In this document: piece after piece, positions 13,563 through 29,316 of the stretch
Numbering within the stretch: the stretch's first letter is position 1
How the letters are laid out: each line of letters starts with the position of its first letter
Origin: a virus
Length of the DNA stretch: 29,316 bases
Reading direction: 5' to 3' (one strand)
IMG/VR virus record: IMGVR_UViG_3300025671_000357
Coordinates: 1 to 29,316 of that record
The notes under the pieces: generated by a model
What the model saw: the letters and a program-made list of their open reading frames with translations, nothing else
What the model was told of the DNA's origin: nothing
Database searches by the model: none
Made by a program: the position numbers and the translations under genes

Positions 13563-13569
13563 TGAAACA

Positions 13570-13875
13570 TTACCACTTGACTTTGTCGGCCCAGTAGGCA
13601 GCGCTCATCTTGCCTTTCTTAATGTTCTTGGCGTGTCTAGCCTTGAAGCTTGCACGCTTCTTCTTCATTCTATCCGACTCACCAGCCTTGGGCTTGCCAG
13701 CAGTCTCAGCTCCCTTCTCTCCAAAGCGGATGAGCTTGACTTTGTCACCCTCTTTTGCCAACACCATGTGTGACTTCTTGGGGTGACTTGGTGTAGCCTT
13801 TGGTTTGTTGACGCCTTTGAGTCCGTGCTTATTTAGCATGCGCTTAACGCGCTCTCTCATTGCCTCTTTGCTCAT
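13570..13875 (-). CDS. Small basic portal-linked phage protein
   Basis: 101 residues, about a quarter Lys/Arg. The first 30 residues form a helix (KEAMRERVKRMLNKHGLKGV). A middle segment (KSHMVLAKEGDKVKLIRFGE) leads into a C-terminal block KKKRASFKARHAKNIKKG followed by KMSAAYWADKVKW. The F-x-A-R-H ... Y-W ... W pattern recurs in many tailed phages as a short stand-alone protein near the portal. Its function is unknown; the charge suggests nucleic-acid or capsid-interior binding. It overlaps the portal stop by 4 bases (ATGA), so the two are translationally coupled. Confidence 0.65.
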   Translation of the reverse strand: MSKEAMRERVKRMLNKHGLKGVNKPKATPSHPKKSHMVLAKEGDKVKLIRFGEKGAETAGKPKAGESDRMKKKRASFKARHAKNIKKGKMSAAYWADKVKW

Positions 13876-16313
13876 CGTCTCATCAGTTCTTGGATGATGT
13901 CCCTGTTGTCTTGGTCCTCAAGTTCGGGGCGTGTACCCTTGCGCTGAGAGATAAGCTTGGACTGAGCCACAGCTTGCTTCTCAACGCGTGAGTCTTTTCT
14001 ATCATCCTTGCTCTTCTCGAGGTCCATGCGGAACTGCTTGTCTGCTGCCTGAAACTGTGACGTCATCTGGAGCTTTGCCATTTGAATCTGACCCTCCACC
14101 TGTTGACGCATCTGCAGGAGCTGCATGTCGACCTGACCCTGAGCCTGAATCTTCTGTAGGTCAGCCTGCGCCTTCATCTGCACCTCTTGCATACGCAGCT
14201 GTGCTGCGGCCTGCTGGGCCTGCATGTTCACCTGTGCTTGCATTTGCATTTGCTGCTGCTGTTGCTGCTGCAACGAGGCGATGCGGCGTTTGCGTCGGAT
14301 GATGAGGACTCTTTCTGCTTGGTCCAAATCCTTGAGACGACGGATTGCCATAGCATCCTCAAGGTCAATCTCTCTTTGTGCAAGTGACTGTTGGATGTTT
14401 TGTTCGAGTAACAACTTGGCTTCATCTGACATCTCTCGCTCAACAATCACACCGTAGTTGTGAAGTGGCAGAGAAGCAAACGAAGAAAGAATTTCCATGC
14501 TCGTGCTTCCGATGGCTCTTTCGTACGCCTCGTAGATGATGGACTCTGGGGGCAAGACCTGAAGGCACTTGACCACGTCCTCACACACTCTCTTGTACAG
14601 AACAGAGGCGCCATTGGTGATGTCGTTGATGGCGTTGTTGGCTGCAGCGAGCTGCTGCTGACGCACACCCACAAGGGCATCTGACTTTGGTGAGCTACCG
14701 TCAAGAACCTCGTTGACACCCGTGACATCACGAATCATGCGGAGGTAGTGGTTGTACAAACCAATAAGCTCGTTGATGTTCCGAATGGTATTGTCCAGTG
14801 GTCGCACAGGCGGGTTCTGGAATCCACCCTCTGGGTTCTTGCTTCTGTAGTAGAAGACACCTGTCTGCTCGTAGATGTCCTGAATGTCGAGAGGCTGAAG
14901 CTCTCCACCGTTGCCTAGAGACACATTCTCCAGACCCTCGATGTCCACAATCAAACCATCAGGCTTAGCCTTGGCAATGGCTTGTTGAATCTTGAGGTGG
15001 GTCAGCTGAAGCTGGTCAGCAAAGCCGATGACAGACGACACCATAGACTTGGGCATCTGACGGCGGAAGTTTGTTGCCACAACGCTGTACGAAAGACGAG
15101 CGCGTGTGAGGTCGTGCATGTTCTTCGGGATGTCCCGCTTCATGCCGTAGTTGAAGAGAAGCCCGCTACCGATGACATACGAGCCACCATACACGCACAT
15201 GTTGGGCATGGTGTGAATCTTTCTGTCGTACACTGAGTCGCTAGGCAGCTTGTAGCTCTCGCCCTTGTAGTAGAAACCAATGTTTCCAAACTGCGAGGTC
15301 TTCTCCTCGTAAATCATATCGTCGACGCCAAGGAACTCGAAGTCCAAGACGTCAACCAAGTATTCATCGTAGCCGTAGACATGGGCGCCACGGCTTCTGT
15401 CGTACACCGTCTGATTGAACTGGGAAGCGTTGTTGTAGCTTCTGTTCATCACAGACTTCGCAATCTTCTGATACTCCTCCTCAGGGATGTCTGTACCCGC
15501 CATGCGCTTCAGGTCCTGAATCGACACACGCTTGACGTGGCCTGCGTAGACGATGTCAGAGAAGTTTGGGTCTTCCGTGCTGGAGTGGATGAACTGCGCT
15601 GGGTCCACATACTCCGTCTTGATTCCGTAGCTAGGGTCGTTGCTCCTCTTGACAACAGCCATACCGTTGACCACGAGGTCCTCCACGGCGCGGCGGAACA
15701 CGTTGTCATCAAAGTCATTCCAGTCGAGGGTGAGCTTAGTGGCAAGTTGAGCTGCCACCTCAGCACTGGTCTTGATACTATCAGCCAAGTAAATCTCAGC
15801 CTCCTCTGAGTTGTCAGGCAACCCCTCGGGGACGCTCGCTGTCTTCAGGCCGAGAGACTTTGCCTCCTCGATAACCTCTCTTTCTTCAATAGCAAACTTG
15901 GCCAGAACCTTCTTCTTTTCCTTCTCGTCCTTCGACATCGGGTCGATGGCCTCCACGTTTGGGCGGAACTTGCGAGAGAGAATCTTGTTGACTACAATCC
16001 TAACAAACTTAGGGATGATTGGTACAGGTGACCAGTCGAGGTTCAGCAGTGTTCCGTCACCCCCTTGGGTGTCCATGCTGTTCAGAATCTGCTTGTAGAC
16101 TGCGGTATCCTGCGTGCCGTTGGCGTAGTCTCGGTTGCGCTGGAACTCTACCAAGCGCTTACCGAAGCCTGTAGAAAAGTCGTCCAAACCACCCCACTGT
16201 GCCTCGATAGATTTAGCATAGGAAATGCCATAGTCTTCGCTTGCTTTGACGGAAGCCGGAGCCATTGGGTCCGGGAACTGTGCATACGACTTTGGCTTAT
16301 GGTGACCCTTCAT
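13872..16313 (-). CDS. Portal protein
   Basis: 813 residues, in the size range of crAss-like and T7-like portals. The N-terminal 120 residues are helical with the loop DWSPVPIIPKFVRIVVNKIL. The central region holds a strand-rich part (YVDPAQFIHSSTEDPNFSDI) and the typical DNTIRNINELIGLYNHYLR helix followed by DVTGVNEVLDG. Residues 670-790 form a Gln/Met-rich coiled coil with a run of seven Gln at 682-688, as at the C-terminus of many podovirus portals. It is the first gene after the terminase, with its own -7 promoter box. It would form the dodecameric DNA channel at one capsid vertex. Confidence 0.85.
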   Translation of the reverse strand: MKGHHKPKSYAQFPDPMAPASVKASEDYGISYAKSIEAQWGGLDDFSTGFGKRLVEFQRNRDYANGTQDTAVYKQILNSMDTQGGDGTLLNLDWSPVPIIPKFVRIVVNKILSRKFRPNVEAIDPMSKDEKEKKKVLAKFAIEEREVIEEAKSLGLKTASVPEGLPDNSEEAEIYLADSIKTSAEVAAQLATKLTLDWNDFDDNVFRRAVEDLVVNGMAVVKRSNDPSYGIKTEYVDPAQFIHSSTEDPNFSDIVYAGHVKRVSIQDLKRMAGTDIPEEEYQKIAKSVMNRSYNNASQFNQTVYDRSRGAHVYGYDEYLVDVLDFEFLGVDDMIYEEKTSQFGNIGFYYKGESYKLPSDSVYDRKIHTMPNMCVYGGSYVIGSGLLFNYGMKRDIPKNMHDLTRARLSYSVVATNFRRQMPKSMVSSVIGFADQLQLTHLKIQQAIAKAKPDGLIVDIEGLENVSLGNGGELQPLDIQDIYEQTGVFYYRSKNPEGGFQNPPVRPLDNTIRNINELIGLYNHYLRMIRDVTGVNEVLDGSSPKSDALVGVRQQQLAAANNAINDITNGASVLYKRVCEDVVKCLQVLPPESIIYEAYERAIGSTSMEILSSFASLPLHNYGVIVEREMSDEAKLLLEQNIQQSLAQREIDLEDAMAIRRLKDLDQAERVLIIRRKRRIASLQQQQQQQMQMQAQVNMQAQQAAAQLRMQEVQMKAQADLQKIQAQGQVDMQLLQMRQQVEGQIQMAKLQMTSQFQAADKQFRMDLEKSKDDRKDSRVEKQAVAQSKLISQRKGTRPELEDQDNRDIIQELMRR

Positions 16314-16338
16314 TACTTACTGTATTACAGGCAATGTG

Positions 16339-16346
16339 CAAATATA
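16339..16346 (-). promoter_or_regulatory. -7 promoter box TATATTTG for the portal operon
   Basis: Minus strand TATATTTG, 25 bases before the portal ATG, in the gap after the terminase stop. The plus-strand stretch gcaaatataaacaaaa (16338-16353) is identical to that at 7761-7776. A consensus -33 element is not visible. Confidence 0.55.
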
Positions 16347-16353
16347 AACAAAA

Positions 16354-18495
16354 TCACTTAGCGGGCTTGGAGACCCCGCCGGGCGTGTAGGTGTACTTGC
16401 GGAAGAATTTTTTACCTGTAAAATCAGCTGGCTTTTTCTTTTGCACAACAGTCTGCGCTGCGAGCAATGCAAGACCTGCGCTAATGGTCAAGTCAAACTT
16501 CGTGCGGTTGTCGATACGGTAACCAATCCAGTCCTCAAGCGTGCGGTTAAAATACATCCTACCGATTTCTCCTTTCTCATTGATTCCCACATGGTTGTGT
16601 ATGTAGTCTTCAATCGCTTGTGCATGTGTGTGGATGACATCCTGTGAGTTAGACGGGATGCCTTTCGTTTTGGTTGCAACAGAACCTGCGGTAGTCAGGT
16701 GTTGCGGTCTATCCAATAAGTAGCCATCATAACCTCTTGATTCAAAGTATCTTACGATGCCGTACTTATTGTTCTCCACGAGGAGCGGGTAGCCGTAGAA
16801 CACAGCCGCCATCAGGATGTCTTCGTAGAAGATTTTTGCCATAGGAGGGCGGGAGCAGTACTCTGCAACGAACATGTTAGAGGGGGCCCGCATGTTGAAT
16901 TTGTTGTAGATGTGACACGCTCCCTTAGAGCCCCTCCCGTCCGTAGTGGCGTCGATGTCGTAAGAGTCAACACCACCACAGCCAATGAGTTTGTTTGGCG
17001 CAATGCGTTTGCCCCGTTCGGAAACCTTGAGGTTCCTGAGGTCTGCAGGAGGCATCCATGATACGAACCACCTGCCCTCAGAGCTTGGAACAAACACAAC
17101 CTCTCCGTCCCTTACGCCTCCTTTCCATGTAAAGTTTCCACGCACCACGGGGTCTGGGTACATGTTCTCGTTGTGGTCAATCTGCTCATAAATCTTTCCG
17201 ATGTTGAACAGAGAGCCTTCGACGCTATCTCGGAACGCCTCGTCTGTGGTGAAGGGGAACTGACGAACAATCTCGTTCATCTCCCGGGCATCATGCCTGA
17301 GAGCCTCCCTTTCGTTTTTTAGAAACTCCTTTGCGCCTATCTCTACGGTTTCCCCGTCCAGCGTCTCCACCTCCTGTCCCGGAGTCTCGATGATTGGCTT
17401 CCCGTACTTGTCGAAGAATCCCTCTAAGGCTTCGTAAGCCGGAATAAAGATTCTGTACAATCCGGAGGTTGTCCTGCCGTTTTTGTTGCGTTCTTGTGGG
17501 TCGGAATCTTTCCAAAGCTCTTTGTATTCCTGACCTCCTTTGTCCATCGGGTTGACTGTGCTGCCCACAAGCGCCTTCCCGATAACACGGCGTCCCACAA
17601 TCAAGCAAGTCCGTTGTATCCTCCATGCTTCTCTAATGTCTGTTGGTTTCTCCCACTTGCCTGCCTCATCGAGATACAAGATATGCAACTTCTCACCATC
17701 GTACGCATTGTTCGTGGTGTTTTTCCAGTTAATGATTGTGTTCAGGGCGTCGCCCTTGACAGAGGTCTTGTTGTTTTTGGTAATCCTTTTAGACGGTTCT
17801 CTAAACGCCAACTCCATTCTCGGGTTGGTAGTACCGTCTTGGATGGGCTTAAAGAAGAACGGGTAGGACTTGAAGATAGCTACGACCTTCTTCATGAAGA
17901 CGTTCTCCTGCGCGTCCTTACCCGTCTTCGACTGGATACCCAAAAGTTTGTCCTTGACCTGTGTGGCTTCATCAACTAGAACGCAGGCGGACATGTTCGT
18001 GTACCCTGAGCGACGACACTTGGTATACAGTTGACCAAGGCATCTGGGGTCAGCCTCACACGCGGCCTGATGGATGAAGAGCTTCCGTTGGAAGTCTAGG
18101 AAACTAGGATAGCCAATATCTATCTTGCTCCACTGAAGCATCATGTAGTGACGCCCAGTGATGTATGTAGGTTCTCCGTTGTTGTAGAACCAGTAGCCCT
18201 CGCGCCTTCTACGGAACTCCTCCTCGATGAAGGGAGAGAACCTCTGGCGAAACTCCTTGGGCATTTCATACCACTCGTCCATGGATTTGATGCGAGCAAG
18301 CTCAGATGGCATCTCGCTCCTGTTCCAGCACTGCAAGTGGTTCGGCAGGTCGTGGCCTGCAATCTCTTTCTTCGGTGGTTTCTTTGGCAGACAGATAGGA
18401 AGCCCGGAGATGTCAATGACTTCCCCGAGTGTGCCGCGCGGGCAGATGGATACGACTGGTTGGTCGTGCTTCTCTATGTCTACCAGCCCCGTCAC
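16354..18495 (-). CDS. terL: Terminase large subunit (DNA-packaging ATPase/nuclease)
   Basis: 713 residues. The ATPase half has a deviant Walker A at residues 158-166 (TKCRRSGYT), Walker B at 271-277 (HILYLDE, catalytic Asp276-Glu277) and a coupling motif GST at 311-313. The nuclease half has the RNase H-like acidic triad: Asp510 in GCGGVDSYDID, Glu574 in LLVENN and Asp668 in TKFDLTISAGLALLAA. The N-terminal block YPSFLDFQRKLFIHQA (130-145) is the usual adenine-binding lead-in. It overlaps the upstream coiled-coil gene by 4 bases. It packages DNA through the portal encoded next and cuts concatemers. The lack of a canonical G-K-T in Walker A is unusual but seen in distant terminases. Confidence 0.9.
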   Translation of the reverse strand: MTGLVDIEKHDQPVVSICPRGTLGEVIDISGLPICLPKKPPKKEIAGHDLPNHLQCWNRSEMPSELARIKSMDEWYEMPKEFRQRFSPFIEEEFRRRREGYWFYNNGEPTYITGRHYMMLQWSKIDIGYPSFLDFQRKLFIHQAACEADPRCLGQLYTKCRRSGYTNMSACVLVDEATQVKDKLLGIQSKTGKDAQENVFMKKVVAIFKSYPFFFKPIQDGTTNPRMELAFREPSKRITKNNKTSVKGDALNTIINWKNTTNNAYDGEKLHILYLDEAGKWEKPTDIREAWRIQRTCLIVGRRVIGKALVGSTVNPMDKGGQEYKELWKDSDPQERNKNGRTTSGLYRIFIPAYEALEGFFDKYGKPIIETPGQEVETLDGETVEIGAKEFLKNEREALRHDAREMNEIVRQFPFTTDEAFRDSVEGSLFNIGKIYEQIDHNENMYPDPVVRGNFTWKGGVRDGEVVFVPSSEGRWFVSWMPPADLRNLKVSERGKRIAPNKLIGCGGVDSYDIDATTDGRGSKGACHIYNKFNMRAPSNMFVAEYCSRPPMAKIFYEDILMAAVFYGYPLLVENNKYGIVRYFESRGYDGYLLDRPQHLTTAGSVATKTKGIPSNSQDVIHTHAQAIEDYIHNHVGINEKGEIGRMYFNRTLEDWIGYRIDNRTKFDLTISAGLALLAAQTVVQKKKPADFTGKKFFRKYTYTPGGVSKPAK

Positions 18496-18785
18496 TTACT
18501 GAATCTTTCTGCAAACCCGCCTGAGTAATCCTTTGCTTCGTCGATAGCTCCGTTTTCGCTTAGGTCCTTGACCATCTGCTCCAGACGCTGCCTTTCGATT
18601 AGCAGTTCTTTGCAATCGGTAGCGGTCTGCTTGATGGACTGAAGCTCAGCCTTGCGTGCAGCACCACCAGCCTCTGGGTCGACGGGTCGCTTGACCTCCT
18701 CAATCATATTGTTGATTGCGATAGCCATGCTATCCATCAGCCTGCGAGAGGCCTCGATTGTCTCGAACTTAGGCTTCCTCGACAT
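18492..18785 (-). CDS. Small coiled-coil protein, possible terminase small subunit
   Basis: 97 residues, nearly all helical: RRLMDSMAIAINNMIEEVKR, a Pro/Gly break, then a long heptad-like helix (AELQSIKQTATDCKELLIER, QRLEQMVKDL). It lies between a GroES-like gene (17-base overlap) and the large terminase (4-base overlap). That position is usual for a small terminase subunit, and an oligomerising coiled coil would fit, but no helix-turn-helix DNA-binding motif is visible. The small-terminase reading is therefore only positional. Confidence 0.55.
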   Translation of the reverse strand: MSRKPKFETIEASRRLMDSMAIAINNMIEEVKRPVDPEAGGAARKAELQSIKQTATDCKELLIERQRLEQMVKDLSENGAIDEAKDYSGGFAERFSK

Positions 18786-19359
18786 ACATCATCTCTTCTG
18801 AGCGCATGCGAAACACGGTGGTGTTGTCCTCCAATCGCATCTCGTAGTCTCGGTTCTTTTTGAACCCAACGATGTCTCCTGCCTTTACGCCCTGAGTAAT
18901 CATATCCTTGGGGCAGCAGAACACTTTCGCCTTGAGGTGCGTCTTGGGCTTGAGGTCAACCACGATAATCTCGCTCTCCTCTGGTTCCTCTTCTTCGAGT
19001 GGCTGAAGGAATACCCAGTCCGCAAGCATGTGGAGCTCACCAGTATCCTTGCTTCGGTAAGCAATCGCATGGCAGCCAAGGGTGTTGTCTGGGTCGTACC
19101 CCACAATGAACCTGTCCTCGTCGTCAACCTGAATCTTCAAGGCATCAGACATGACTACGTGGTGGTGGAAAAACAGGGTGTCTCCCGGCTTGACATCCAC
19201 GTCGTACTTGACTGGGGTTGACGTCACCTCACCGTACATGACGCGTCGCTCGAACTCCTTCCACTTAGGGTCGACGTAGAGCGACGTGCCGTTCTCCAGC
19301 TCGATGGTGTCGTGATGAGTCTTCTCAAGCTTCACCACGAAGTGATACAGCGCCTTCAT
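18769..19359 (-). CDS. GroES-like protein with two tandem chaperonin-10-type repeats
   Basis: 196 residues. Residues 1-120 show the GroES pattern: a start strand (YHFVVKLEKTHHDTIELENG), a turn with VDVKPGDTLFFHHHVV (53-69) matching the G-D-x-V-x-F core, and a closing strand HMLADWVFLQPL. After an acidic linker (EEEEPEESE) a second half at residues 130-195 repeats it more clearly: GVKAGDIVGFKKNRDYEMRL, then VFRMRSEEMMYVEE, close to the GroES C-terminus. T4 gp31 and RB49 CocO are known phage co-chaperonins for capsid folding. This one could help fold the capsid or giant tail proteins with host GroEL. The hydrophobic I-V-L mobile loop is not obvious, which weakens the call. It overlaps its upstream gene by 4 bases. 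Confidence 0.6.
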   Translation of the reverse strand: MKALYHFVVKLEKTHHDTIELENGTSLYVDPKWKEFERRVMYGEVTSTPVKYDVDVKPGDTLFFHHHVVMSDALKIQVDDEDRFIVGYDPDNTLGCHAIAYRSKDTGELHMLADWVFLQPLEEEEPEESEIIVVDLKPKTHLKAKVFCCPKDMITQGVKAGDIVGFKKNRDYEMRLEDNTTVFRMRSEEMMYVEEA

Positions 19360-19595
19360 TCAAAGTTGCAATCGTATTCAACAATGACCGGGGTGTTCTC
19401 CACAGTCTTCCACAGGTAGGACGATTCACTGTCCTGAGTGTAGATGTTGTACCTACGAATGTTGTACTTGAACATAGCGCGGTCATCCTCCTCGATAAGA
19501 ACAACCTTTCCTGCGCCAGCTTTCATGCCGACGTAGTACGCCATCGCATCCTTCGGATTGGGACCGATGACGATTTTCCTGATTAAATTTTCCAT
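19356..19595 (-). CDS. Small hypothetical protein
   Basis: 79 residues of mixed alpha/beta character (MENLIRKIVIGPNPKDAMAY; KVVLIEEDDRAMFKYNIRRY). It starts 4 bases after the stop of the upstream acidic protein and overlaps the GroES-like gene by 4 bases, so it belongs to the terminase unit. The A-x-x-Y-x-V-G pattern and the strand GKVVLIEED could form a small alpha/beta domain. No known motif is recognised and no function is proposed. Confidence 0.6.
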   Translation of the reverse strand: MENLIRKIVIGPNPKDAMAYYVGMKAGAGKVVLIEEDDRAMFKYNIRRYNIYTQDSESSYLWKTVENTPVIVEYDCNFE

Positions 19596-19599
19596 TGTA

Positions 19600-19917
19600 T
19601 TAGTTGAGGTTGAAGCCTAGGTCGCCTAGGTCGATGTCATCAATGTCGATGTCATCATCTTCTTCGGTAATCCTTTCGTAAGAGGCCATGATGGCTGAGA
19701 ACAACTCGGCAAGTTCTTCCGGGTTATCTACATGCCATTTGCTGGCCACCTGCCAAGCGGGACCAATATCTGGGATGTCGTCGACGATGCCGAGCCCAAA
19801 GATGTATGCCACCCTTTCGTTTACTTGATACTTCTCGATGACGTCTTCAAGCTGCGCCAAGACGTCTGCTACTTCTGAGATGAAGAGCTCCTTTAGGGTG
19901 GGGTCCATGGTTGTCAT
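19600..19917 (-). CDS. Small acidic helical protein
   Basis: 105 residues with the start chosen at MTTMDPTLKELF (ATG at 19917), which shares one base with the stop of the preceding gene. An in-frame upstream ATG at 20007 would extend the protein far into that gene and is rejected. The body is helical (ELFISEVADVLAQLEDVIEK; AELFSAIMASYERI), and the tail is strongly acidic (EEDDDIDIDDIDLGDLGF). The acidic tail could mimic DNA or bind a basic partner, but that is speculation. The family is not recognised. Confidence 0.6.
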   Translation of the reverse strand: MTTMDPTLKELFISEVADVLAQLEDVIEKYQVNERVAYIFGLGIVDDIPDIGPAWQVASKWHVDNPEELAELFSAIMASYERITEEDDDIDIDDIDLGDLGFNLN

Positions 19918-20798
19918 TATTGTCCGTTGATTACGAGGATGGTTGAAGGGTTGGTAGAGTTTCCGACAAGCTTTCCGCTGACGTGCCATCCGGCGTCGTC
20001 GTAGCACGTAAGCTCAAGGAAGCTTCCTACTGCTCCTCCGAGGTTGTCACTATCTTGTTCCAGCGTGAGCTGGTTGTGTGTAGAGACAGCAGCCGATGCG
20101 GTTGCACGGGTTACAGTCTGAACAGCAGTCTTGTTTCCAGTCGTAGAGACGTGCGTGACTGCGCCGTAGAAGTAGTCACCCGATGCCGCGTTGATGTTGC
20201 ACGCGGTGTTCGACCCTACATCCACAAGAATGCGCAAGAACCTGCCTGCAGATGCACTGGGCAGGGTAAGAGTTCCTCCAGCAAGAGTATCACAGTCCAA
20301 GAATACGGTAGCTCCTACTTCTGAACTTGCGTTAACCGAAGTGGTGGTAGTTACGTTCAGTGTCTTTCTAACGTCGTACTTCACGGTTATCTGAGACCCG
20401 TTAGCGCGAAGGGTTATGTTCTGACCCGACTGAAAATTTGCTGTAGACGCGTGCCCGGCTGAATCCGTAATGGTAACGCCGATAGCAGTGCCGGTACCAT
20501 TTACCGTGGTGCCGTTGCCGGTAGATACCTGAACGGTCTTGAGGTTCGGAAGGGTGCGTGTGCTAATCAATCCGGTAGACGCATCGCGTACTAGGATTTG
20601 GTCGCTCGTGGAAGTTGCGGGTGAATCAATCAGAAGATTCGTTACCTTTACCTGAGCTGTAGACACAGACAGTGCCGTATCATTGCCAGCGCCATCGGTA
20701 ACAACTTTAAGGCTACCGCTAGCTGCAGCGTTGTCGGTGGTCTTAAGGATTCCGACGTAGGTGGTTTTGATTTGAGTACCTGATAGTGACGTTCCCAT
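19917..20798 (-). CDS. Fibre-like or head-fibre structural protein
   Basis: 293 residues from MGTSLSGTQIKTTYVGILKT (ATG at 20798). An in-frame ATG at 20882 is rejected because it lies upstream of the -7 box and across the start of the divergent gene. The N-terminal pattern (SGTQIKTTY...KTTDNAAA) is one I associate with fibre and head-fibre proteins of Bacteroidota phages. The rest is a run of Thr/Ser/Ala/Gly-rich beta strands (LPNLKTVQVSTGNGTTVNGT; DCDTLAGGTLTLPSASAGRF) ending in FLELTCYDDAGWHVSGKLVG. No enzymatic domain is seen. It leads the terminase transcription unit and its leader shares AAAAAGAACAA with the capsid gene. Confidence 0.65.
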   Translation of the reverse strand: MGTSLSGTQIKTTYVGILKTTDNAAASGSLKVVTDGAGNDTALSVSTAQVKVTNLLIDSPATSTSDQILVRDASTGLISTRTLPNLKTVQVSTGNGTTVNGTGTAIGVTITDSAGHASTANFQSGQNITLRANGSQITVKYDVRKTLNVTTTTSVNASSEVGATVFLDCDTLAGGTLTLPSASAGRFLRILVDVGSNTACNINAASGDYFYGAVTHVSTTGNKTAVQTVTRATASAAVSTHNQLTLEQDSDNLGGAVGSFLELTCYDDAGWHVSGKLVGNSTNPSTILVINGQ

Positions 20799-20817
20799 CT
20801 TGTTCTTTTTGTCTACA

Positions 20818-20825
20818 CAAATATA
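20818..20825 (-). promoter_or_regulatory. -7 promoter box TATATTTG, divergent control region
   Basis: Minus strand TATATTTG, 20 bases before the fibre-like gene ATG at 20798, in the 33-base gap that also separates it from the plus-strand regulator gene (ATG 20832). A regulator binding here could block both genes. No matching promoter facing the regulator gene was found. Confidence 0.5.
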
Positions 20826-20831
20826 CTCAAA

Positions 20832-21278
20832 ATGAAGAGACACAGACCTGAGCGCAAAATGCGGGAGTTCTCCTACCTCCACGAGAAGTACGTGAACAAG
20901 AACTACCTCAAGTATCTAAAGCTCGCAGAGACAGACATGCTGCAGCATTACGACGTTAGGCCAGTAGAGATGCAGGTGATGTTGTTTGGTTACGACTACG
21001 AGTTCTTTACCGCGACGCACATCGCAAAGTCATTGTTTGCATCCCCCAAGAAGTTCAGAGAGCGCACGCTACAACCCATGATGAAGAAGGGGTTAATACA
21101 CGTGGTACACCGTAGGTTCAACGTGGACACAGGAAGCGAGGCCGACATGTACTTCACAGAGGAAGCTAAGGCGAACTACAAGCACAGGTACGGTCTTACG
21201 CCCAAGGCAAGACACCTCGTGCAGAGGTTCTATCGCAAGCTAGAGGGCGAAGAGGCGATTAAGATTTCCCGTGAGTGA
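20832..21278 (+). CDS. MarR-like winged-helix DNA-binding protein
   Basis: 148 residues, the only convincing protein gene on the plus strand. After a basic N-terminus (MKRHRPERKMREFSYLHEKY), residues 40-95 have the MarR-type pattern: a dimer/helix start (DVRPVEMQVMLFGYDYEFFT), a helix-turn-helix (ATHIAKSLFASPKKFRERTL, positions 61-80), then QPMMKKGLIHVVHRRF as strand and wing. Residues 118-138 (HRYGLTPKARHLVQRFYRKL) match the L-T-x-x-A closing helix of such proteins. It would bind DNA as a dimer, perhaps at its own divergent gap. Its 3' end overlaps the convergent minus-strand gene by 20 bases. The ATG at 20832 is used here; ATG at 20859 is an alternative. Confidence 0.75.
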   Translation: MKRHRPERKMREFSYLHEKYVNKNYLKYLKLAETDMLQHYDVRPVEMQVMLFGYDYEFFTATHIAKSLFASPKKFRERTLQPMMKKGLIHVVHRRFNVDTGSEADMYFTEEAKANYKHRYGLTPKARHLVQRFYRKLEGEEAIKISRE

Positions 21279-21450
21279 CGGTCTTGAATGACGCCTTCTC
21301 TACAGCTCCGGGGTGAGGCTTGTAGTCTCCCTTCATCAGAAAGTACCTACCTCCCTCTTCCATCCAGTGGTAGCCCTTGGGAGGGTCTACCGTAACCTTC
21401 TTGCTCAAGACCTGAAGACCACCCTTCTTGTATTTCTTTACAGTGTTCAT
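21259..21450 (-). CDS. Small basic hypothetical protein with a KYKKGG motif
   Basis: 63 residues, Lys/Gly-rich. The N-terminus carries KYKKGGLQVL (residues 6-15), a copy of the aromatic-x-x-Gly-Gly motif that recurs in other small genes of this cluster. Then PPKGYHWMEEGGRYFLMKGD suggests one beta-hairpin. It overlaps its upstream neighbour by 4 bases (ATGA) and converges on the plus-strand regulator gene, overlapping it by 20 bases. No function can be assigned. Confidence 0.6.
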   Translation of the reverse strand: MNTVKKYKKGGLQVLSKKVTVDPPKGYHWMEEGGRYFLMKGDYKPHPGAVEKASFKTVTHGKS

Positions 21451-21590
21451 GCGTTGTCTGCCTTAAGCTGAGCGAAGTAAGCATGCTCGGTAGGGAAGCT
21501 TTCTTGGGGATAGGCCGCAAGAAAGATGTCACAGTACTCGTAGATTTCTTCCGAGCTAAATGAAGTTTGTTCTGGCCACTGGTCTTCCAT
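21447..21590 (-). CDS. Very small hypothetical protein (47 residues)
   Basis: ATG at 21590 shares one base with the stop of the preceding gene, and TGA overlaps the next ATG by 4 bases, so tight coupling on both sides supports a real gene. The protein reads MEDQWPEQTSFSSEEIYEYC, then DIFLAAYPQESFPTEHAYFA and QLKADNA. It is acidic with aromatic residues and a probable helix at the C-terminus. I do not recognise it. Without it the 137-base gap would be the only unexplained one in the cluster. Confidence 0.6.
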   Translation of the reverse strand: MEDQWPEQTSFSSEEIYEYCDIFLAAYPQESFPTEHAYFAQLKADNA

Positions 21591-22027
21591 CAGTATGTCT
21601 TTGTTGCGGTTTGAGCAATGTCTGCGTATCCATCTCTAGACAGAGTGAAGTCTATTCTGATTGTGTGACCCACCGCTCCGCTGACCAAGGTTTGTACATT
21701 TTGTCCAGTAAGCAAGATGTAATAACCATCACCCGATTGACCCAGCGGCGTGTTGTAGGCAGTGTCTGCTGGAGTTGCTGTATCGCTCGTAGTCTCGTTG
21801 GTCCAAGTGATGTTCTTTAGAGTGTAGTCGCCAATCGTTCCACTCCAGTCGTTGGCGAAATCAATTATTGTAGAGACGGTCGTACCCCTAAGCGTACCCG
21901 ATAAGGCGCTCTCTGGAGTGGTAAACACTCCTACGGTTGTCACCGTCCACTCTGTAATCCGAGAAGGAAGTTGTCGAATACGAGCTTGTGACCTTCTGCG
22001 GGCCGATGAATTTGCTAGTCTTCTCAT
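21590..22027 (-). CDS. Hypothetical beta-rich protein with a basic N-terminus
   Basis: 145 residues. The first 23 residues are strongly basic (MRRLANSSARRRSQARIRQL). The rest is an immunoglobulin-like or fibre-like beta domain rich in Thr (ITEWTVTTVGVFTTPESALS; DYTLKNITWTNETTSDTATP; HTIRIDFTLSRDGYADIAQT). It overlaps the giant calcium-loop protein gene by 4 bases, so the two products may act together. The basic head with a single beta domain could dock on a partner or on DNA. The family is not recognised. Confidence 0.6.
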   Translation of the reverse strand: MRRLANSSARRRSQARIRQLPSRITEWTVTTVGVFTTPESALSGTLRGTTVSTIIDFANDWSGTIGDYTLKNITWTNETTSDTATPADTAYNTPLGQSGDGYYILLTGQNVQTLVSGAVGHTIRIDFTLSRDGYADIAQTATKTY

Positions 22028-25000
22028 GTTGTTTCAGTCGGGGTTGGTGGCGGAAGAGGGAAGCTAGGCAGAGGGGCGTAGTCTTGGTCGTACGTGATTC
22101 CAGAATCCCAGTCAGAGCCGAAGTAGTTTACTGGCAAGAGGTTATCTCCTCCAAAGTCAATCCAAACACCCGATTCGTTAAAGTAACCAAACAGGTTCAT
22201 GGTGGCACTATCGAGGTTTCCGTCCTCCGAAAAGCTTCCGAAGAATGCCGTGAACTGGTCAATGTCAGACTCGTCAAATACTTGGTCTCCATTGATGTCG
22301 TACCCGGCAAGACCCATATTTGAAATCATATCGTAGTCTCCGCCCAGCTGTGTGTTCAGAAGGTCGATAAACGAAGCGAAGGCCTGTACGTCGGCATAGC
22401 TAAACACTCCGTCAGAGTTGAGGTCAAACGGTAGGTCTGGGTTTGGAGAAACCCCACTGTTGATAAATTGATTCAGCAGAATCGAAGTAGCCTGAGGAGA
22501 ACCCGGTGCGTAGCTGCCTGCGGTAACATCGTAAGTACCGTCAGTAGCGGTGGCGTAGAAGGTTGCTGCGCCCCAAGCAAATTGCTCTCCATCAAGACCA
22601 TTAAAGAGAGTGGTAGCCGCATATTCTGTGTCAAGGATGTCTCCAAACATAGCCAGTGCTGCAACGTTGTCTCCAACGGCTGTGATAGTATCATTGGCAA
22701 AGAACCCAGCTCCAAACTGTCCAGAGGTTTCAAAGAAGCCATTTTCCCAAAGGAACGTGCCAAGAATGAGGACATCATCTCCTTCAATCAAAGACCGACC
22801 TCCTTGAACGGCAGATGTGTTGTAGGAATTAACTAGGTCGAGCCATGATTGTCCATTCTGAACCGCATTCTCGATAAAGCCCTGAAGAGACGACCAAGCT
22901 AGTGCATCACTGTTGTCGAAAACACCGTCACCATCGAGGTCGAGGTTCAACGGTAGGCTTGAGCCAGAGTTGTAGTTTCCGACGTAAGCTGCGATGTAGT
23001 TCTGATTGGCAATAGAAATCAAGTCGTTATACAGGCCATCTGCAAGAGATGTTCCGTTCGACTGGAAGTTGATTGCCATGCCATCGTTGTCGAGCACCGC
23101 TCCCACTCCAGCATTAAGACCAACCGCATCGAGGTAGTCTACATACGCTAGGAGCTCTGCGTTGGTGGGCAGGTTGTTCGCTACACCGCTTCCTCCTCCA
23201 AAGTTGGTAGGGTTGAAAATAAAGAAGGTTCCACCTCCATCATTCCAAAGAACCCCATCAAAATCACCTGATGCAAAAGGCGCGAATGATGGCGGGGCTT
23301 GCTGATTTGTGTACCATTCCGGCACAGAGCCCGTGTCTTGGGTTTCTTGTACTGCCTCCCAGTAGTAGAAGAAGCTTGCAGTAATACCCAAAAGAGCACC
23401 CACCTCTGAGCTGCTATAGGTCCCGGTGTAAGCATCTCCTGCCCCGCTGTATCCGGTAAACGAAAGGTAAGCATCAAAGGCTCCTCCTTGAGGAACCAAG
23501 CTATCGAGAGCTGATGCCCAAGCAGGCATTCCCCCAAAAGGGTCTCCTTCATTCGGGGTAAAACCTCCAAACCCGAGCCAGTTAAGTTGATAGCCGCTTA
23601 GGTCACCGTAGCTTCCGTTTCCAAAATTTTGAAAGAAAGCATTGCCTTGGAGGCCATCGTAAAGTCCAAATTGTTGCCAATTAGTTCCGGAGTTGTAGTT
23701 GTTGACCACACCTCCTCCTTGCATGAGGAACTGCCAAAGGTGACACCAGTCGGCAAAGTTAATCTGACCGTCGCCACCAAAGTCAACAAGTCCGTTTGCA
23801 GACCTGAGCCAGTTCTTCCAGCTGTAGCTATCTGCTGGAGAATTGAGGCCTTCTCCCCCGTCGAACAAGCTAAGTGCGTTTGCGCCAAGCGGTGGGATGA
23901 GGATGGTAGCGTTAGCCGTGTTAAAGGTGTAGAATACCGTACCGTCTGCGACGTTCACGTAATCGTAGTGACCCTCGAGGCTAGGGTCCTGACCAAAGTT
24001 AAAGTAACCGTACCCGTACCCAAGAACATTTAGGAACTGAGTAAAGCTAGGTGCATCAAATCCAAACTCATCTGCAATGTCATTATCCGAAAAGCCTTGT
24101 GCAACCCAGCCAATGTATTCATCCCAAAAAGCCTCGTATCCGTCGGTAAGCATTGAGGTGTACTGCCCTTGACCCAAAGCCCAATCAAAGAAGCTTGCGT
24201 CTAAGAAGCCAATACTGAAAAAGATGTCCGTCGTAACAAGCGTGTCATAGGTAGCGCCATACGGCATCTGAAGTGCCAAGAACGTCGAGAGCTGATAGTC
24301 AGTCCAAGTGCCATCACTAAGAACGTCCAGCACTCCCGGCGGTTGGTACTGGTTGGTGATAAAGTCATACCAAACCGTTGACTCAATCAAACCGGTGGCG
24401 AGCGAGTTTCCTGAGTAACCCGTCGCAAAACCACTGATGGTAATTATGTTTGGAACACCCGGAACGAGGGCTGTTGGGCCCGCAGTATTAAGAAAGTTCT
24501 CTACCTGCTGAAGAACGTTCGGTTGGCTGAAGTCGTAGCTAGTTCCAAACACCTCGTTAAGACTATCCAAGTACTCTTGCACCAAGGTGCTATCTACCGT
24601 ATCCCCCGTCGCCCCAAAGATTTGAGTCATCAAAGAGTCGGTATAAATCTGGGACCATGTGCTCAAGTCATTGCCTTGCTGGCTGGGGTTGCCGTTTTGA
24701 GAAAGGTTCACATCGTAAAGCTGCCTCCACTGCTGAGTGTTAATCATCAGGTTGAGGTAGGCGTATGGCGCGATGGTGCCGTTAGGCGTTCCCGTCACTC
24801 CTTGTGTCGTGGGCCTATTCTCCAACCAAACACTACCCGGCGTGCTCTCATTTAGAGTCGGCGGGTTCAAGATGACAAACAGAGACTGGTCTGTTAGGTT
24901 ATCCAGACCATCAAAGCTGCTGTACGGGCTGGTTCCGGTGGTAATGAAATAGGCAGGGTAACCATTATTGTCGATGTACTCGATGTACCCGCCGCTTCCT

Positions 25001-27033
25001 CCGGTGATATATCCGTAGTCAAGTCCATCATTGTACCATTGGACAAAGGCCAAGTAGTCCAGCCAAGGGCTAAGTCCATCAGGGTTTGGAAGCCCCGGGT
25101 CATTGGCCGAACCCCAGAGCGCGGCGAGCAAGAACGGGTTGTTGTCCGCGCCGAACAGCAGGTCTGCTTCTGTTGACGTTATGCCCCAAAGGAAACCTGC
25201 ATTTGACCCTCCGTTAAATACAGTCGATGCGTATTCGCTTGCACCGACGTCGTTAAAGTAGTCTGGCCACCAATCTGTGCCCGGTATTCCAATGGTGCCC
25301 AAGCTGTCTATCCCGAATGGATAGTTCATCCACATGAACGTGGCAATCTGCATCTCTCCAAACCCGGTGTTGGCATTTGGCAGCATCCAGTTGGGCCATG
25401 GAGCATCGTTAAAGATGTCGGTCAGGTTGTTTTCAGCAAGCCAGTTGGTGTCAAAAATTAACGGGCCATTCGGGCCGTCCAGCGTAAGAATGTCTTCTAA
25501 CGTAAATGTCAGAGCTGGAGAGTCGGGTAGATACTGACCGTCGTTAAAACCATCGGCCATGTCTTGAGCGTAGTTGTAGAACCACGTCATACAATCCGTC
25601 CACCAAGCCCCGAGGTTGTCGATAGCGTTAAAGTTGTCAGGACCATTTTGTCCCCAGTCGATGTCGTAGTTAGAGCGCCAAAGAGCTGTACTGGAGAGTG
25701 CGAAGTTAATGGCGTTTGACTGAAGGTCTGGCCGCTCGGCCTCCCACGCATCAAAAGTTGGTGGGGGGAGAGGGGGTCCATCGACAATCCCGATGAGGTC
25801 TAGCTGCGCTTCTCCCGCTCCTGAGATGTCGTTAATGTTCTGGGTATCATCCCATACTCCATTTGTATCGAAGTAAAGGTTACCAGACCCGATTGATGTG
25901 CCGTAGTAGTTGTAGTATTCTACAATGGCATCAATGTCTTCCTGAGTGTAGATGCCGTTGCCTGCAGAAATAGTCACAGACTCACCGTTTTGGATTGCCT
26001 GAACAACTTGAATCATTTCAGTCACATCCAACCATGCCGTGATGTCCTCACCATTGAAGGTGCCATCCCCATTTACATCAAAAGAAGCAAGAGTAAAGTT
26101 AGACTCTAGAGAGCCTGTGAGTGCGTTTGCAGCAAGCCCGAGCTCTCCTCCTGAAGATTGTACCGTATCGAGCCATTGGGACAAGTTGTTATCGCTATAC
26201 CCAAGAGGGTCTCCCGTCATGTTGTACAGAGCGACGTCTGCGTAGATGTTAAGCAAAGGCAACATGTTCAGGTCGAACCACGAGCCTAGGTCATCAAGGT
26301 CTTCTGCTGTAGGGTTGGGGTTTACAAGGAGGGTTTCAAAGAAGTCTGCTGGAACGTCACCCTGATATGCGTTAAAGACCGCTTCAAATGCGTTGCCTCC
26401 GTCGGCAGCGTTTCCGGTGGCTGCAAATAAATTCCAGTCAAACGGTGCCAGAAAGAGTTCGTTATCTAGCAGGTCTTGAAACGTGGTATAAGAACCGTCC
26501 CCGGTCGCCGGGTCATAACCCCCTTGAGGGTTGTAAAACATCCCGTACCCCCAGTTAAAGTTCACTCCCGTTATGTCCAAGAAGACATTTCCAAGGTTGT
26601 ATGTAAAACCGTCTGCCGCCCCGGATGGAGACTGCCCGGCCATCTGAGCCCAGAAGTCAACAATAGAAAGTGCGTCGTAAATATCAAGGGTGCCGTCAGG
26701 AGCCCCATCGGGTCCGTAGGTGTCCATGTTTCCACCAGCAAAAGAGATAGCACCACCAAGTGCTCCGATAGATTGTCTGTAGGACTCGGGTAGCTGTGGG
26801 GGGTCTTGCTCTGTTACAGGCGGTGGGGGTGGCGGGTCGCCGCTCGGGTCAAATCCACCATCGGTTTGCGTACCGTCCTCTTCCTCGTCCTCCTTCTTCT
26901 TTAGGTAGGCCTTGTTTAGAGCTTCGTCATCGCCAAGAGGCTCGCGCTTGATGACTTCATCAGGTGCAAGCGGTACTGCCTTCTCGCCGTGTTCTGGGTC
27001 GCGGAAGGTGTCCGATAGCTTCTTCAGCTTCAT
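22024..27033 (-). CDS. Giant acidic protein with EF-hand/dockerin-like calcium loops
   Basis: 1669 residues. After a Lys-containing N-terminus with TFRDPEHGEKAVPLA (9-23) and a Pro-rich linker (66-72), the protein is extremely poor in Lys/Arg and rich in Asp, Asn, Gly, Trp, Tyr and Phe. Loops of type D-x-N/D-x-D-G-x-x-x-x-x-D followed by a hydrophobic helix start at residues 319, 1365 and 1537. A Gln for Gly variant starts at 1579, and degenerate ones lie near 109, 356, 903 and 1084. Such loops are typical of type I dockerins and EF-hands and imply Ca2+ binding. A motif of type A/G-x-x-x-G-h recurs near 622, 987 and 1213. No signal peptide or membrane helix is visible. It is flanked by small genes, overlapping one by 4 bases. 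A virion surface adhesin or internal protein is inferred; I recognise no whole-length family. Confidence 0.75.
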   Translation of the reverse strand: MKLKKLSDTFRDPEHGEKAVPLAPDEVIKREPLGDDEALNKAYLKKKEDEEEDGTQTDGGFDPSGDPPPPPPVTEQDPPQLPESYRQSIGALGGAISFAGGNMDTYGPDGAPDGTLDIYDALSIVDFWAQMAGQSPSGAADGFTYNLGNVFLDITGVNFNWGYGMFYNPQGGYDPATGDGSYTTFQDLLDNELFLAPFDWNLFAATGNAADGGNAFEAVFNAYQGDVPADFFETLLVNPNPTAEDLDDLGSWFDLNMLPLLNIYADVALYNMTGDPLGYSDNNLSQWLDTVQSSGGELGLAANALTGSLESNFTLASFDVNGDGTFNGEDITAWLDVTEMIQVVQAIQNGESVTISAGNGIYTQEDIDAIVEYYNYYGTSIGSGNLYFDTNGVWDDTQNINDISGAGEAQLDLIGIVDGPPLPPPTFDAWEAERPDLQSNAINFALSSTALWRSNYDIDWGQNGPDNFNAIDNLGAWWTDCMTWFYNYAQDMADGFNDGQYLPDSPALTFTLEDILTLDGPNGPLIFDTNWLAENNLTDIFNDAPWPNWMLPNANTGFGEMQIATFMWMNYPFGIDSLGTIGIPGTDWWPDYFNDVGASEYASTVFNGGSNAGFLWGITSTEADLLFGADNNPFLLAALWGSANDPGLPNPDGLSPWLDYLAFVQWYNDGLDYGYITGGSGGYIEYIDNNGYPAYFITTGTSPYSSFDGLDNLTDQSLFVILNPPTLNESTPGSVWLENRPTTQGVTGTPNGTIAPYAYLNLMINTQQWRQLYDVNLSQNGNPSQQGNDLSTWSQIYTDSLMTQIFGATGDTVDSTLVQEYLDSLNEVFGTSYDFSQPNVLQQVENFLNTAGPTALVPGVPNIITISGFATGYSGNSLATGLIESTVWYDFITNQYQPPGVLDVLSDGTWTDYQLSTFLALQMPYGATYDTLVTTDIFFSIGFLDASFFDWALGQGQYTSMLTDGYEAFWDEYIGWVAQGFSDNDIADEFGFDAPSFTQFLNVLGYGYGYFNFGQDPSLEGHYDYVNVADGTVFYTFNTANATILIPPLGANALSLFDGGEGLNSPADSYSWKNWLRSANGLVDFGGDGQINFADWCHLWQFLMQGGGVVNNYNSGTNWQQFGLYDGLQGNAFFQNFGNGSYGDLSGYQLNWLGFGGFTPNEGDPFGGMPAWASALDSLVPQGGAFDAYLSFTGYSGAGDAYTGTYSSSEVGALLGITASFFYYWEAVQETQDTGSVPEWYTNQQAPPSFAPFASGDFDGVLWNDGGGTFFIFNPTNFGGGSGVANNLPTNAELLAYVDYLDAVGLNAGVGAVLDNDGMAINFQSNGTSLADGLYNDLISIANQNYIAAYVGNYNSGSSLPLNLDLDGDGVFDNSDALAWSSLQGFIENAVQNGQSWLDLVNSYNTSAVQGGRSLIEGDDVLILGTFLWENGFFETSGQFGAGFFANDTITAVGDNVAALAMFGDILDTEYAATTLFNGLDGEQFAWGAATFYATATDGTYDVTAGSYAPGSPQATSILLNQFINSGVSPNPDLPFDLNSDGVFSYADVQAFASFIDLLNTQLGGDYDMISNMGLAGYDINGDQVFDESDIDQFTAFFGSFSEDGNLDSATMNLFGYFNESGVWIDFGGDNLLPVNYFGSDWDSGITYDQDYAPLPSFPLPPPTPTETT

Positions 27034-27036: not shown

Positions 27037-27591
27037 TTACTTCTTTCTGCTGTCCTTAATCATTCGGACGAAGTCCACGGGGTCCATTACCCCGAAGCCT
27101 CCCTGCTCAAAGGTTCGCATCATCTTTCCGCCGCCCTTGTAGCTTGGGGTCTTCGCCCCTCTTTTGGCAAGCATCATACCCTCCTCACCTGTTTGTAAAG
27201 GTCCTGTGCCTGAGCCAGAGACTTCGGCTGAGGGAGCATCTTCAGTACCGAACGTAGGCACCTCGATGTCCTCCATAAGCTCAGTGAAGCCAATGATGTT
27301 ACCATCTTCATCGTAGGTGTACTCGTACTGGCCAGTGCCGATTTGCTGCGTCTCACTTCCTGTCTGAACAGTTTGCTGTGCAGTGTATGGGTCACCCATT
27401 ACCGTGGTTCCGGTTTGCTTGCGTGACACCTCTCCTGCCAATGGCTCAGACTTAGCCCCGTGCTCTGGGTCTCGGAATGTAGAGAAGTCGGCGGGGTTGT
27501 TTCTTACAGCCTTGTCTGTAGCTGCTTTTCTTGCGGCTGCTGTGCCACGGGCGGGCATGCTGCCACCCTCTTGCATCTTCTTGGTTCTCAT
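27037..27591 (-). CDS. Hypothetical protein with GG motifs and a tag shared with its neighbour
   Basis: 184 residues. Residues 5-10 are KMQEGG, 150-155 SYKGGG and 160-165 TFEQGG, three copies of the cluster's aromatic/Met-x-x-Gly-Gly motif. Residues 38-52 (TFRDPEHGAKSEPLA) closely match residues 9-23 of the giant protein encoded next. The middle is polar and Thr/Gln/Gly-rich (TAQQTVQTGSETQQIGTGQY) and looks disordered, with a short acidic block. The C-terminus is basic and helical (DPVDFVRMIKDSRKK). It starts 4 bases inside the upstream gene and ends 3 bases before the giant gene. No enzyme motif; a virion-internal or adaptor role is only a guess. Confidence 0.6.
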   Translation of the reverse strand: MRTKKMQEGGSMPARGTAAARKAATDKAVRNNPADFSTFRDPEHGAKSEPLAGEVSRKQTGTTVMGDPYTAQQTVQTGSETQQIGTGQYEYTYDEDGNIIGFTELMEDIEVPTFGTEDAPSAEVSGSGTGPLQTGEEGMMLAKRGAKTPSYKGGGKMMRTFEQGGFGVMDPVDFVRMIKDSRKK

Positions 27592-28082
27592 AGGTTCAGT
27601 TTTGCGATGACAACATCATTGAGGTCGATGTACTCGATGCGAACATCCCCCCCATTGTTAAGTGCCTTTAGAATTTTTGGGTACACTCTCTTGTACGCCT
27701 GTGTTGATTTGCCGATGAATCCATCATCCACGAGCTGATTGTTCTCTTGGCTGTCACCAAGTAGAAGACATCCTGCTGTGTGCTCGTCTGTGTTGCCACA
27801 GTGGATGAGGATGTATTCAAAGTTGGGAACGTCTCGCACCCAGAGCATGCCCTCATGGATGTCGGGAAAACGCTCGGAGTACTTGGCGTGAAACCCGCCC
27901 TCGGTCCGAAGCGTGATGTCGTATGTCCCCTCAGGGATTCGGGTCTCCCCGTACTTCTTCTTCTCCCGCTCCTCGTCCTCCAAAGTGTAGCACAGGAACT
28001 CACGCCCATCAGGGAGCAACTCAAACAACATGCCGTTGGTCGAGTCGCCGCTATCGGAGAATCTGAGTACCTGCAGGTGCAT
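27588..28082 (-). CDS. DUF5675-like protein with an L,D-transpeptidase-like His/Cys motif
   Basis: 164 residues. The architecture fits my memory of DUF5675: an N-terminal strand pair (GMLFELLPDGREFLCYTLED), the segment KYGETRIPEGTYDITLRTEG (44-63), VRDVPNFEYILIHCGN, then TAGCLLLGD (102-110). His94 and Cys105 lie in I-H-x-G-N-T ... T-x-G-C-h-h, which resembles the H-G ... S-x-G-C core of YkuD L,D-transpeptidases. That makes a cell-wall role (peptidoglycan cutting or crosslinking at entry or lysis) plausible but unproven. No signal peptide is present, as in holin-dependent endolysins. It overlaps the upstream stop by 1 base and the downstream start by 4 bases. Confidence 0.75.
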   Translation of the reverse strand: MHLQVLRFSDSGDSTNGMLFELLPDGREFLCYTLEDEEREKKKYGETRIPEGTYDITLRTEGGFHAKYSERFPDIHEGMLWVRDVPNFEYILIHCGNTDEHTAGCLLLGDSQENNQLVDDGFIGKSTQAYKRVYPKILKALNNGGDVRIEYIDLNDVVIAKLNL

Positions 28083-28378
28083 TACTTCTTCGTCTTCTTC
28101 TTGAGGAACATTCCCTTATTGGCCTTAGGAGTCTTTGCTTCCTTGGCCGCAGACTTCATGGACTCGGTCTTGTTGCCGTCCCCATCAATGTCGATGTAGT
28201 CTGGCTTGCCGCCCTGAGCGAACTTCTGAGTCTTACCTCCGTACGCAAACGTCCGCTTGGACAGCTTGACGCCTCCGCCCATCATCATCTTCTTGATTTC
28301 GTCCATGGACATCTGCTTGACGTTACCGCCTGCGTAGTAAACAGGGTAGGTGCTCCCTTTCTTTTTTGCTTTTGCCAT
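28082..28378 (-). CDS. Small basic protein with GG repeats and a DGDGN loop
   Basis: 98 residues with Lys-rich ends. It carries VYYAGG (13-18), MMMGGG (31-36), TFAYGG (43-48) and KFAQGG (52-57), the densest set of the aromatic-x-x-Gly-Gly motif in the window. Residues 61-74 read YIDIDGDGNKTESM, which looks like half of an EF-hand calcium loop but lacks the closing acidic residue. Similar short proteins with a G-D-G-N-K-T-E patch occur in marine phages as I recall. The C-terminus is a run of Lys (FLKKKTKK). A -7 box lies 20 bases before the ATG. Function unknown; packaging into the capsid is one possibility. Confidence 0.6.
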   Translation of the reverse strand: MAKAKKKGSTYPVYYAGGNVKQMSMDEIKKMMMGGGVKLSKRTFAYGGKTQKFAQGGKPDYIDIDGDGNKTESMKSAAKEAKTPKANKGMFLKKKTKK

Positions 28379-28411: not shown

Positions 28412-28834
28412 TTATCGCAAGTCTGTATCGTGCTTCTTGGAGCCCTTGATGAAGCTGTTGACTCTTCCCATCGCCCATGCAGCCATACTTGTCTTGGGCC
28501 TTGAGCCGCTGGACAGATACGCACCCTGACCTCTACGATACACCTTCTTGAGTGTAGCAAGAGACTTGCCGGATGACTTGGCTTTCTTCTTGAGCGAGGC
28601 AATGGTAGATGCGTTCAAGGGCTTACTATCTTCCTTGGCCCCCTTGCCCTTCTTTACCTCACCACCTTCCTTGTACTTCTGTCGTTCATCAAAGTAGCTG
28701 TCGGGGAGTCGCTTCCCTTCTTTGTAGGCCTCTTGGCCCTCCTTGATGGTTTCGGCTCTTGCCGCCCGATTGGGTGAGCCAGCGAGGTACTTCTCAGGAA
28801 GCCCCGTCTTCTTGTCCTTCTTTACCGCTTGCAT
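28412..28834 (-). CDS. Small basic phage protein with two conserved segments
   Basis: 140 residues. The N-terminal segment TGLPEKYLAGSPNRAARAET (10-29), with an aromatic/Lys pattern behind it, resembles what I remember as DUF5824. The C-terminal segment ATLKKVYRRGQGAYLSSGSR, then SMAAWAMGRVNSFIKG, is a separate short domain frequent in phages and giant-virus-like genomes. Between them lie KYKEGG (53-58) and a Lys-rich linker. The high Lys/Arg content suggests DNA or RNA binding. The start at 28834 overlaps the preceding small gene by 41 bases in another frame, a longer overlap than elsewhere here. Domain names are from memory and unchecked. Confidence 0.65.
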   Translation of the reverse strand: MQAVKKDKKTGLPEKYLAGSPNRAARAETIKEGQEAYKEGKRLPDSYFDERQKYKEGGEVKKGKGAKEDSKPLNASTIASLKKKAKSSGKSLATLKKVYRRGQGAYLSSGSRPKTSMAAWAMGRVNSFIKGSKKHDTDLR

Positions 28835-29224: not shown

Positions 29225-29298
29225 GCTCCCGTAGCTCAACTGGAAAGAGCAACAGCCTTCTAAGCTGTGGGTTGCAGGTTCGAGTCCTGCCGGGAGTA
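29225..29298 (+). tRNA. tRNA-Arg(TCT)
   Basis: A complete 74-base cloverleaf: acceptor GCTCCCG/CGGGAGT (G-T at the first pair), D-arm GCTC/GAGC, anticodon arm ACAGC/GCTGT with loop CTTCTAA, five-base variable region and T-arm GCAGG/CCTGC with TTCGAGT. The anticodon TCT is at 29259-29261 and reads AGA (and AGG). The discriminator is A at 29298 and CCA is not encoded. Whether it belongs to the phage or to flanking host DNA cannot be told from this window. Confidence 0.95.
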
Positions 29299-29316
29299 CA
29301 GCGCTCCGAAAAAAGG

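Follow-up and report, generated by a model that had tools for sequence, protein, structure and literature searches.

A giant lysine- and arginine-poor phage protein with conserved calcium-type loops: a candidate arm of the adsorption apparatus in Elemovirus-like podoviruses

In the T-even phages T2 and T6, fibre and adhesin form a pair, gp37 and gp38, in which the gene for a long protein is followed directly by a small exchangeable gene, with rapid exchange among close relatives. RTX and other calcium-dependent surface adhesins have a very acidic body that is poor in basic residues and carries calcium-binding motifs. Two further points of reference are the canonical EF-hand (PF00036, PF13499) with its 12-residue loop, and the type I dockerin (PF00404; 2y3n chain B), a module of ~60 residues with two tandem loops spaced near 32, Asp/Asn at loop positions 1, 3, 5, and 12, and Gly at position 6. 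Literature searches for dockerin and EF-hand proteins of phage particles yielded passing mentions only, of gene 40 of VvAW1 (PMC3558961) and of a modelled domain in HSE2 Gp02 (PMC5967307), and neither is comparable to the protein described here.

We analyzed a stretch of 29,316 nucleotides from a virus (IMG/VR record IMGVR_UViG_3300025671_000357), hereafter called the window, which encodes a giant acidic protein. The protein, two of its motifs, and the terminase used to place the phage lie as follows:

22024..27033, minus strand: giant acidic protein of 1669 aa with a Lys/Arg-free body and EF-hand/dockerin-type loops
26968..27033, minus strand: N-terminal basic motif MKLKKLSDTFRDPEHGEKAVPL, kept wherever the start of a family member is present
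22108..22188, minus strand: C-terminal motif GYFN..G.W.DF..D....YFG..W, nearly invariant across classes A, B, and C
16354..18495, minus strand: terminase large subunit

The 1669-residue open reading frame described in an earlier note on this DNA was confirmed, and its strand, which that note had left unstated, is the minus strand. The chain contains only 19 Lys/Arg residues, 11 of them within the first 50 positions; the reported scarcity after residue 50 thus holds, with 8 residues left beyond residue 50 and 7 beyond residue 90. The computed pI is 4.05 at a net charge of about −198, and no apparent signal peptide was seen when the N-terminus was judged by eye. In a charge–hydropathy comparison the protein lies just past the Uversky line, towards folded proteins (H 0.479 versus a boundary of 0.456), which gives no support for calcium-dependent disorder. 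Because only seven Lys/Arg residues lie beyond residue 90, the body should be nearly invisible to trypsin-based mass spectrometry, and it would probably resist Lys/Arg-specific proteases. This poor visibility may help explain the absence of similar annotated proteins.

A search with the single protein returned seven loci; searching viral contigs with the family alignment defined a family of 15 loci, which does not include L008, one of the first seven. Full-length members fall into three length classes, i.e., A (1669–1671 aa), B (1409–1451 aa), and C (1765–1767 aa). All of them start with MK.KKLS.TF...EHGEKA.PL (TFRDPEHGEK-like) and carry the near-invariant C-terminal motif, and their bodies contain 0.15–0.51 Lys+Arg per 100 residues. 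We identified no relative in 84,980 genomes, INPHARED phages, PHROGs, or NCBIfam, no PDB match to the giant protein as a single sequence, and no homologue of known function; described tail fibre and tailspike families were likewise not matched (PHROG, NCBIfam, phage records, single-sequence PDB). Where the terminase was ≥ 92% identical and the upstream DNA reached far enough to include a portion of the gene, 11/11 loci carried it; of the ten loci with a terminase of 72–75% identity and at least 9 kb upstream, none did. Judged by these sequence searches, the protein belongs to an apparently undescribed family, whose members have all come from a single clade of Elemovirus-like podoviruses.

Terminase, portal, and structural genes of the phage match PHROG head-and-packaging families. 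The terminase is 47% identical to that of the uncultured podovirus ctfjg026 and 41% identical to those of Flavobacterium Elemovirus phages, and of the 133 phage records that match it, 68 bear the name Flavobacterium and 17 the name Cellulophaga. As these relatives are mostly Flavobacterium and Cellulophaga phages, a host among the Bacteroidota is likely. A sign of type IX secretion is consistent with this: in L047, a more distant relative, the protein at L047:1904-3112 combines an apparent signal peptide with a CHU_C sorting domain of that system (E 4e-14), as does L036:500-1705 by similarity, i.e., both are putative phage-encoded T9SS cargo. Another protein, L067:2847-3992, has an apparent signal peptide, a Peptidase_M43 domain (E 9e-19), and a dockerin-like loop pair, and was read as a secreted metalloprotease. 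At the equivalent position in ctfjg026 and Elemovirus, between the peptidase gene and the terminase, tail-fibre-like genes are found (by their repeat character, judged by eye). We also considered a packaged giant internal virion protein and set it aside: the 54.6 kb contig G001 has a separate protein of more than 3000 residues ending its structural module, which makes the product of the gene studied here something other than the giant internal virion protein usual in phages of this kind. A tRNA-Arg (TCT) is encoded on the plus strand at 29225-29299, close to where the late block starts.

Loops were located with a purpose-designed EF-loop scoring scan (cut-off score ≥ 12) against a background of 300 composition-matched shuffles. 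Six EF-hand/dockerin-type loops reached the cut-off, near residues 319, 1537, 1365, 1084, 109, and 1579, where 0.20 per protein are expected by chance. Their positions, all on the minus strand, are:

26674..26709, minus strand: loop near residue 109, interrupted here by an insert, intact in relatives of class B
26044..26079, minus strand: loop 319, DVNGDGTFNGED, kept by class A and class B members
23749..23784, minus strand: loop 1084, DFGGDGQINFAD, kept by members of every class
22906..22941, minus strand: loop 1365, DLDGDGVFDNSD, kept by class A and class B members and partly by class C
22225..22437, minus strand: C-terminal paired EF-hand/dockerin-like unit of loops 1537, DLNSDGVFSYAD, and 1579, DINGDQVFDESD, resting on the scan, on conservation, and on a family-profile match to PDB 2y3n_B

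The earlier note had named clear loops at 319, 1365, and 1537 and a variant at 1579, and all four stand above the shuffle background, with ligands mostly kept in homologues. Loop 1084, which it had called degenerate, is on the contrary the best conserved of the family (D1084, D1088, G1089, and D1095 invariant). The same word suits the loop near 109 only in the window, where an insert breaks it; its counterpart in relatives is the intact DTSGDGTLDILD. Region 356 is indeed degenerate and forms the partner of loop 319. A further loop proposed near 903 was dropped, as it is not conserved in homologues and was treated as chance. Between residues ~370 and 1083, scan and homologue comparison gave no supported loop, so that the description of loops over the whole length was too strong. 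Class C members have neither loop 109 nor loop 319, which indicates that not every loop is essential.

Most Asp/Asn ligands of loops 319, 1084, 1365, 1537, and 1579 are kept in homologues at 23–40% identity. The earlier note had made its calcium loops depend on conserved Asp positions, and the ligands are kept far above the rest of the protein: between classes A and B, 15 of 20 ligand positions in the five loops are invariant versus 264 of the 1219 remaining aligned positions (p = 7e-7, odds ratio 10.9), for Asp/Asn positions only 15/19 versus 45/203 (p = 1e-6), and with class C added 11/18 versus 97/1145 (p = 5e-8), all p-values being only indicative because members of one class do not count as independent observations and a single member served to choose the loops. 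The prediction that these are calcium loops is thereby supported. One might instead take them for evolutionary relics or purely structural turns of an appendage that does not use calcium, and the breaks at 109 and 356, the loops lost in class C, and the absence of the usual Gly at position 6 of loop 1579 fit such a history. The excess of conserved ligand columns, which persists in the Asp/Asn-only control, makes this very unlikely.

Profile searches agree with the predicted calcium loops. Pfam Dockerin_1 matched residues 310-331 of the giant protein (E 8e-5, barely above the gathering score) and five of seven family members (best E 2.5e-10), and an EF-hand_7 pair was matched in 4/7 members. 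A profile of the C-terminal 630 residues matched the solved structure of the cellulosomal dockerin 2y3n_B with an E-value of 3.2e-6, covering both C-terminal loops, and gave weaker matches to EF-hand proteins. The tandem loops 1537 and 1579 and their counterparts in relatives have Asp/Asn at positions 1, 3, 5, and 12. Off-diagonal self-matches link the 319 region to the 1537 region and, in class C, one region to another (domain E ~1e-6 to 1e-4, in a composition-biased protein), which suggests that the body may be built of diverged repeats centred on the loops. Two AlphaFold jobs with family alignments, together spanning the whole chain, gave mean pLDDT values of 34 and 29, and helices were drawn after 1084, 1365, 1537, and 1579 at a confidence too low to carry weight as evidence (pLDDT 34).

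Regarding loops outside the giant protein, the connector-like virion protein (6095-6892) has an insert, DSDGDGFFDREDD, resembling another calcium loop, and the product of 28082-28378 contains DIDGDGNKTESM. A protein of a relative, L054:6047-7192, ends with DANKDGKITGQDF (Dockerin_1, E 1e-3). In the more distant relative L048, a gene downstream of that for the capsid (L048:11410-12753) encodes a fibre-like protein with the loop DINNDGDVGTADLLEFL, which indicates that calcium-type loops recur in this phage group.

The giant gene is part of a block that differs sharply from the sister phage L018:

21458..27551, no strand: replaced block, without a long nucleotide match to L018; flanks 94% and 85–93% identical
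27037..27591, minus strand: upstream 184-aa gene, with the TFRDPEHG motif repeated within residues 35-51 and a terminal FEQGGF..MDP motif; co-varies with the giant gene
21590..22027, minus strand: downstream 145-aa gene with an Arg-rich N-terminus; its start overlaps the stop of the giant gene by 4 bases
27588..28082, minus strand: conserved flanking gene, DUF5675, 96% identical to L018

Nucleotide identity to L018 is 94% over 10366-21458 and resumes at 85% from 27551 and 93% from 28674; inside the ~6 kb block (21.46–27.55 kb), which comprises the giant gene and the two small genes, only two short pieces of ~70% match. At the protein level, the 184-aa gene is 49% identical, the giant ~31% over 61% of its length, and the 145-aa gene 41% over half, while the nearest conserved flanking genes reach 95–100% (95% for 21259-21450, 96% for DUF5675). 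Similar identity drops were found against L022, L026, and L089. So sharp an edge is hard to account for by divergence in place; replacement of the block by recombination accounts for it. A conserved opposite-strand gene at 20832-21278, 86–100% identical in relatives, breaks the late block, and its product looks by eye like a small DNA-binding regulator. In or flanking the cassette, 28082-28378, 28412-28834, 27037-27591, and 21259-21450 encode small, mostly Lys-rich proteins with Y/F-x-x-GG-type motifs.

The downstream gene keeps its Arg-rich start and varies in its body. Its overlap with the stop of the giant gene is 4 bases in the window, L026, and L089 and 17 bases in L030 and L096. In the window, L018, and L022 the small body has no family match; in L026, L030, and L096 it is a Laminin_G_3 lectin (Pfam, E 2e-14 to 2e-9), to which L089 adds by similarity to L026. 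The lectin form accompanies both class B and class C giants, indicating that tip and arm would be shuffled independently.

The gene belongs to the late block and lies a short way upstream of terminase and portal, a location that would also suit a calcium-stabilised structural or decoration protein of capsid or tail that has no part in receptor choice and whose loops rigidify the particle in seawater; the conserved loops of the giant protein and the similar ones in the connector and a small YxGG protein point the same way. We consider this improbable, since most core virion genes are 77–100% conserved between the same phages in which the giant is ~31% identical, and since neither block exchange nor a lectin neighbour is expected for a core part. 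Of the two virion roles offered by the earlier note, the adhesin is thus favoured, on indirect support and with virion presence presumed, over the calcium-stabilised structural protein, because the cassette was replaced as a block between near-identical phages.

The charge of the protein, the scarcity of Lys/Arg in all full-length members once past the N-terminus, and nearby genes for Lys-rich possible partners (28082 and 28412, the latter with ~24% K+R) could alternatively indicate an acidic polymer that is freed at lysis or injected and acts as a decoy, charge mimic, exclusion factor, or protease-resistant matrix. This is unlikely as well: the giant has no apparent signal peptide, its N-terminal motif recurs in a neighbour whose C-terminus bears a motif of its own, and the overlap with a gene for a lectin-like protein points to an appendage.

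We favour the reading, at a probability of roughly 0.6, that this Elemovirus-like podovirus infects marine bacteria of the Bacteroidota type and attaches to them with an adsorption apparatus in which the giant protein is a long, acidic arm that binds calcium; the arm would be encoded, with its two neighbours, in a cassette of three genes for host recognition. The role in host recognition is drawn from the exchange of the whole block in a conserved background, from the sibling lectin in the overlapping gene, and from the fibre-like genes at the syntenic place. Exchange against a conserved virion background is a trait of receptor-binding appendages, and the comparison with L018 reveals it for the giant gene; rapid exchange also marks genes in other kinds of host conflict, which counts against an attachment role. 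We infer that the protein resides in the virion, binds Ca2+, contacts a tip protein, and takes part in receptor recognition. The N-terminal basic motif, common to the giant and its 184-aa neighbour, is proposed as the particle anchor that would dock the giant on the particle, with the strongly acidic, Lys/Arg-free body pointing outward. Ca2+ in the EF-hand/dockerin-type loops, most clearly in the C-terminal pair, would keep the body in shape. The downstream 145-aa protein is proposed as the exchangeable tip, lectin-like in siblings, which would contact the host surface, and a swap of the cassette would change the specificity of the phage.

In its most extended form this picture becomes tentative: an arm of 1400–1800 residues, purged of Lys/Arg, would be flexible in the low-calcium cytoplasm, fold in seawater through its EF-hand/dockerin loops, carry an exchangeable lectin tip, resist Lys/Arg-specific proteases, and evade trypsin-based proteomics. 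We regard this full combination as rather doubtful, and its most speculative element, that Ca2+ would trigger folding once the protein leaves the low-calcium cytoplasm, as a guess. If the attachment role is true, the family would represent a new phage attachment protein family built around calcium-binding loops in Elemovirus-like podoviruses, and the cassette swap would be a candidate sequence marker of host range for metagenomes and isolates.

Compared with the known systems, the giant shares with type I dockerins Asp/Asn at loop positions 1, 3, 5, and 12, Gly at position 6 in most loops, and two tandem loops near the C-terminus, to which the profile match relates. Unlike in dockerins, its loops are spaced by 42 residues (~35 in class B), the pair is followed by a C-terminal extension, and further loops are scattered through the chain; no cohesin (PF00963) was found as a partner in nine phage records, though one supplied by the host is conceivable. 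We claim no membership in the dockerin family, which would also call for cohesin binding and a matching module size. With canonical EF-hands the protein shares the 12-residue loop, the EF-hand_7 pair in 4/7 members, and, in class B loop 1365, Glu at position 12; however, position 12 is mostly Asp in the family and flanking helices are predicted at very low confidence only. The arrangement of a long protein followed directly by a small exchangeable gene, with rapid exchange among close relatives, resembles gp37/gp38 of T2/T6 as an analogy of arrangement only: unlike that pair, the giant is acidic, Lys/Arg-free, and carries calcium-type loops, and no sequence relation is claimed. Unlike RTX adhesins, it is phage-encoded and not secreted by a known system, and the RTX nonapeptide family gave no match in Pfam or NCBIfam. 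Like RTX-type adhesins, it combines a very acidic body, poor in basic residues, with predicted calcium-binding motifs, and it may work like a calcium-loop adhesin.
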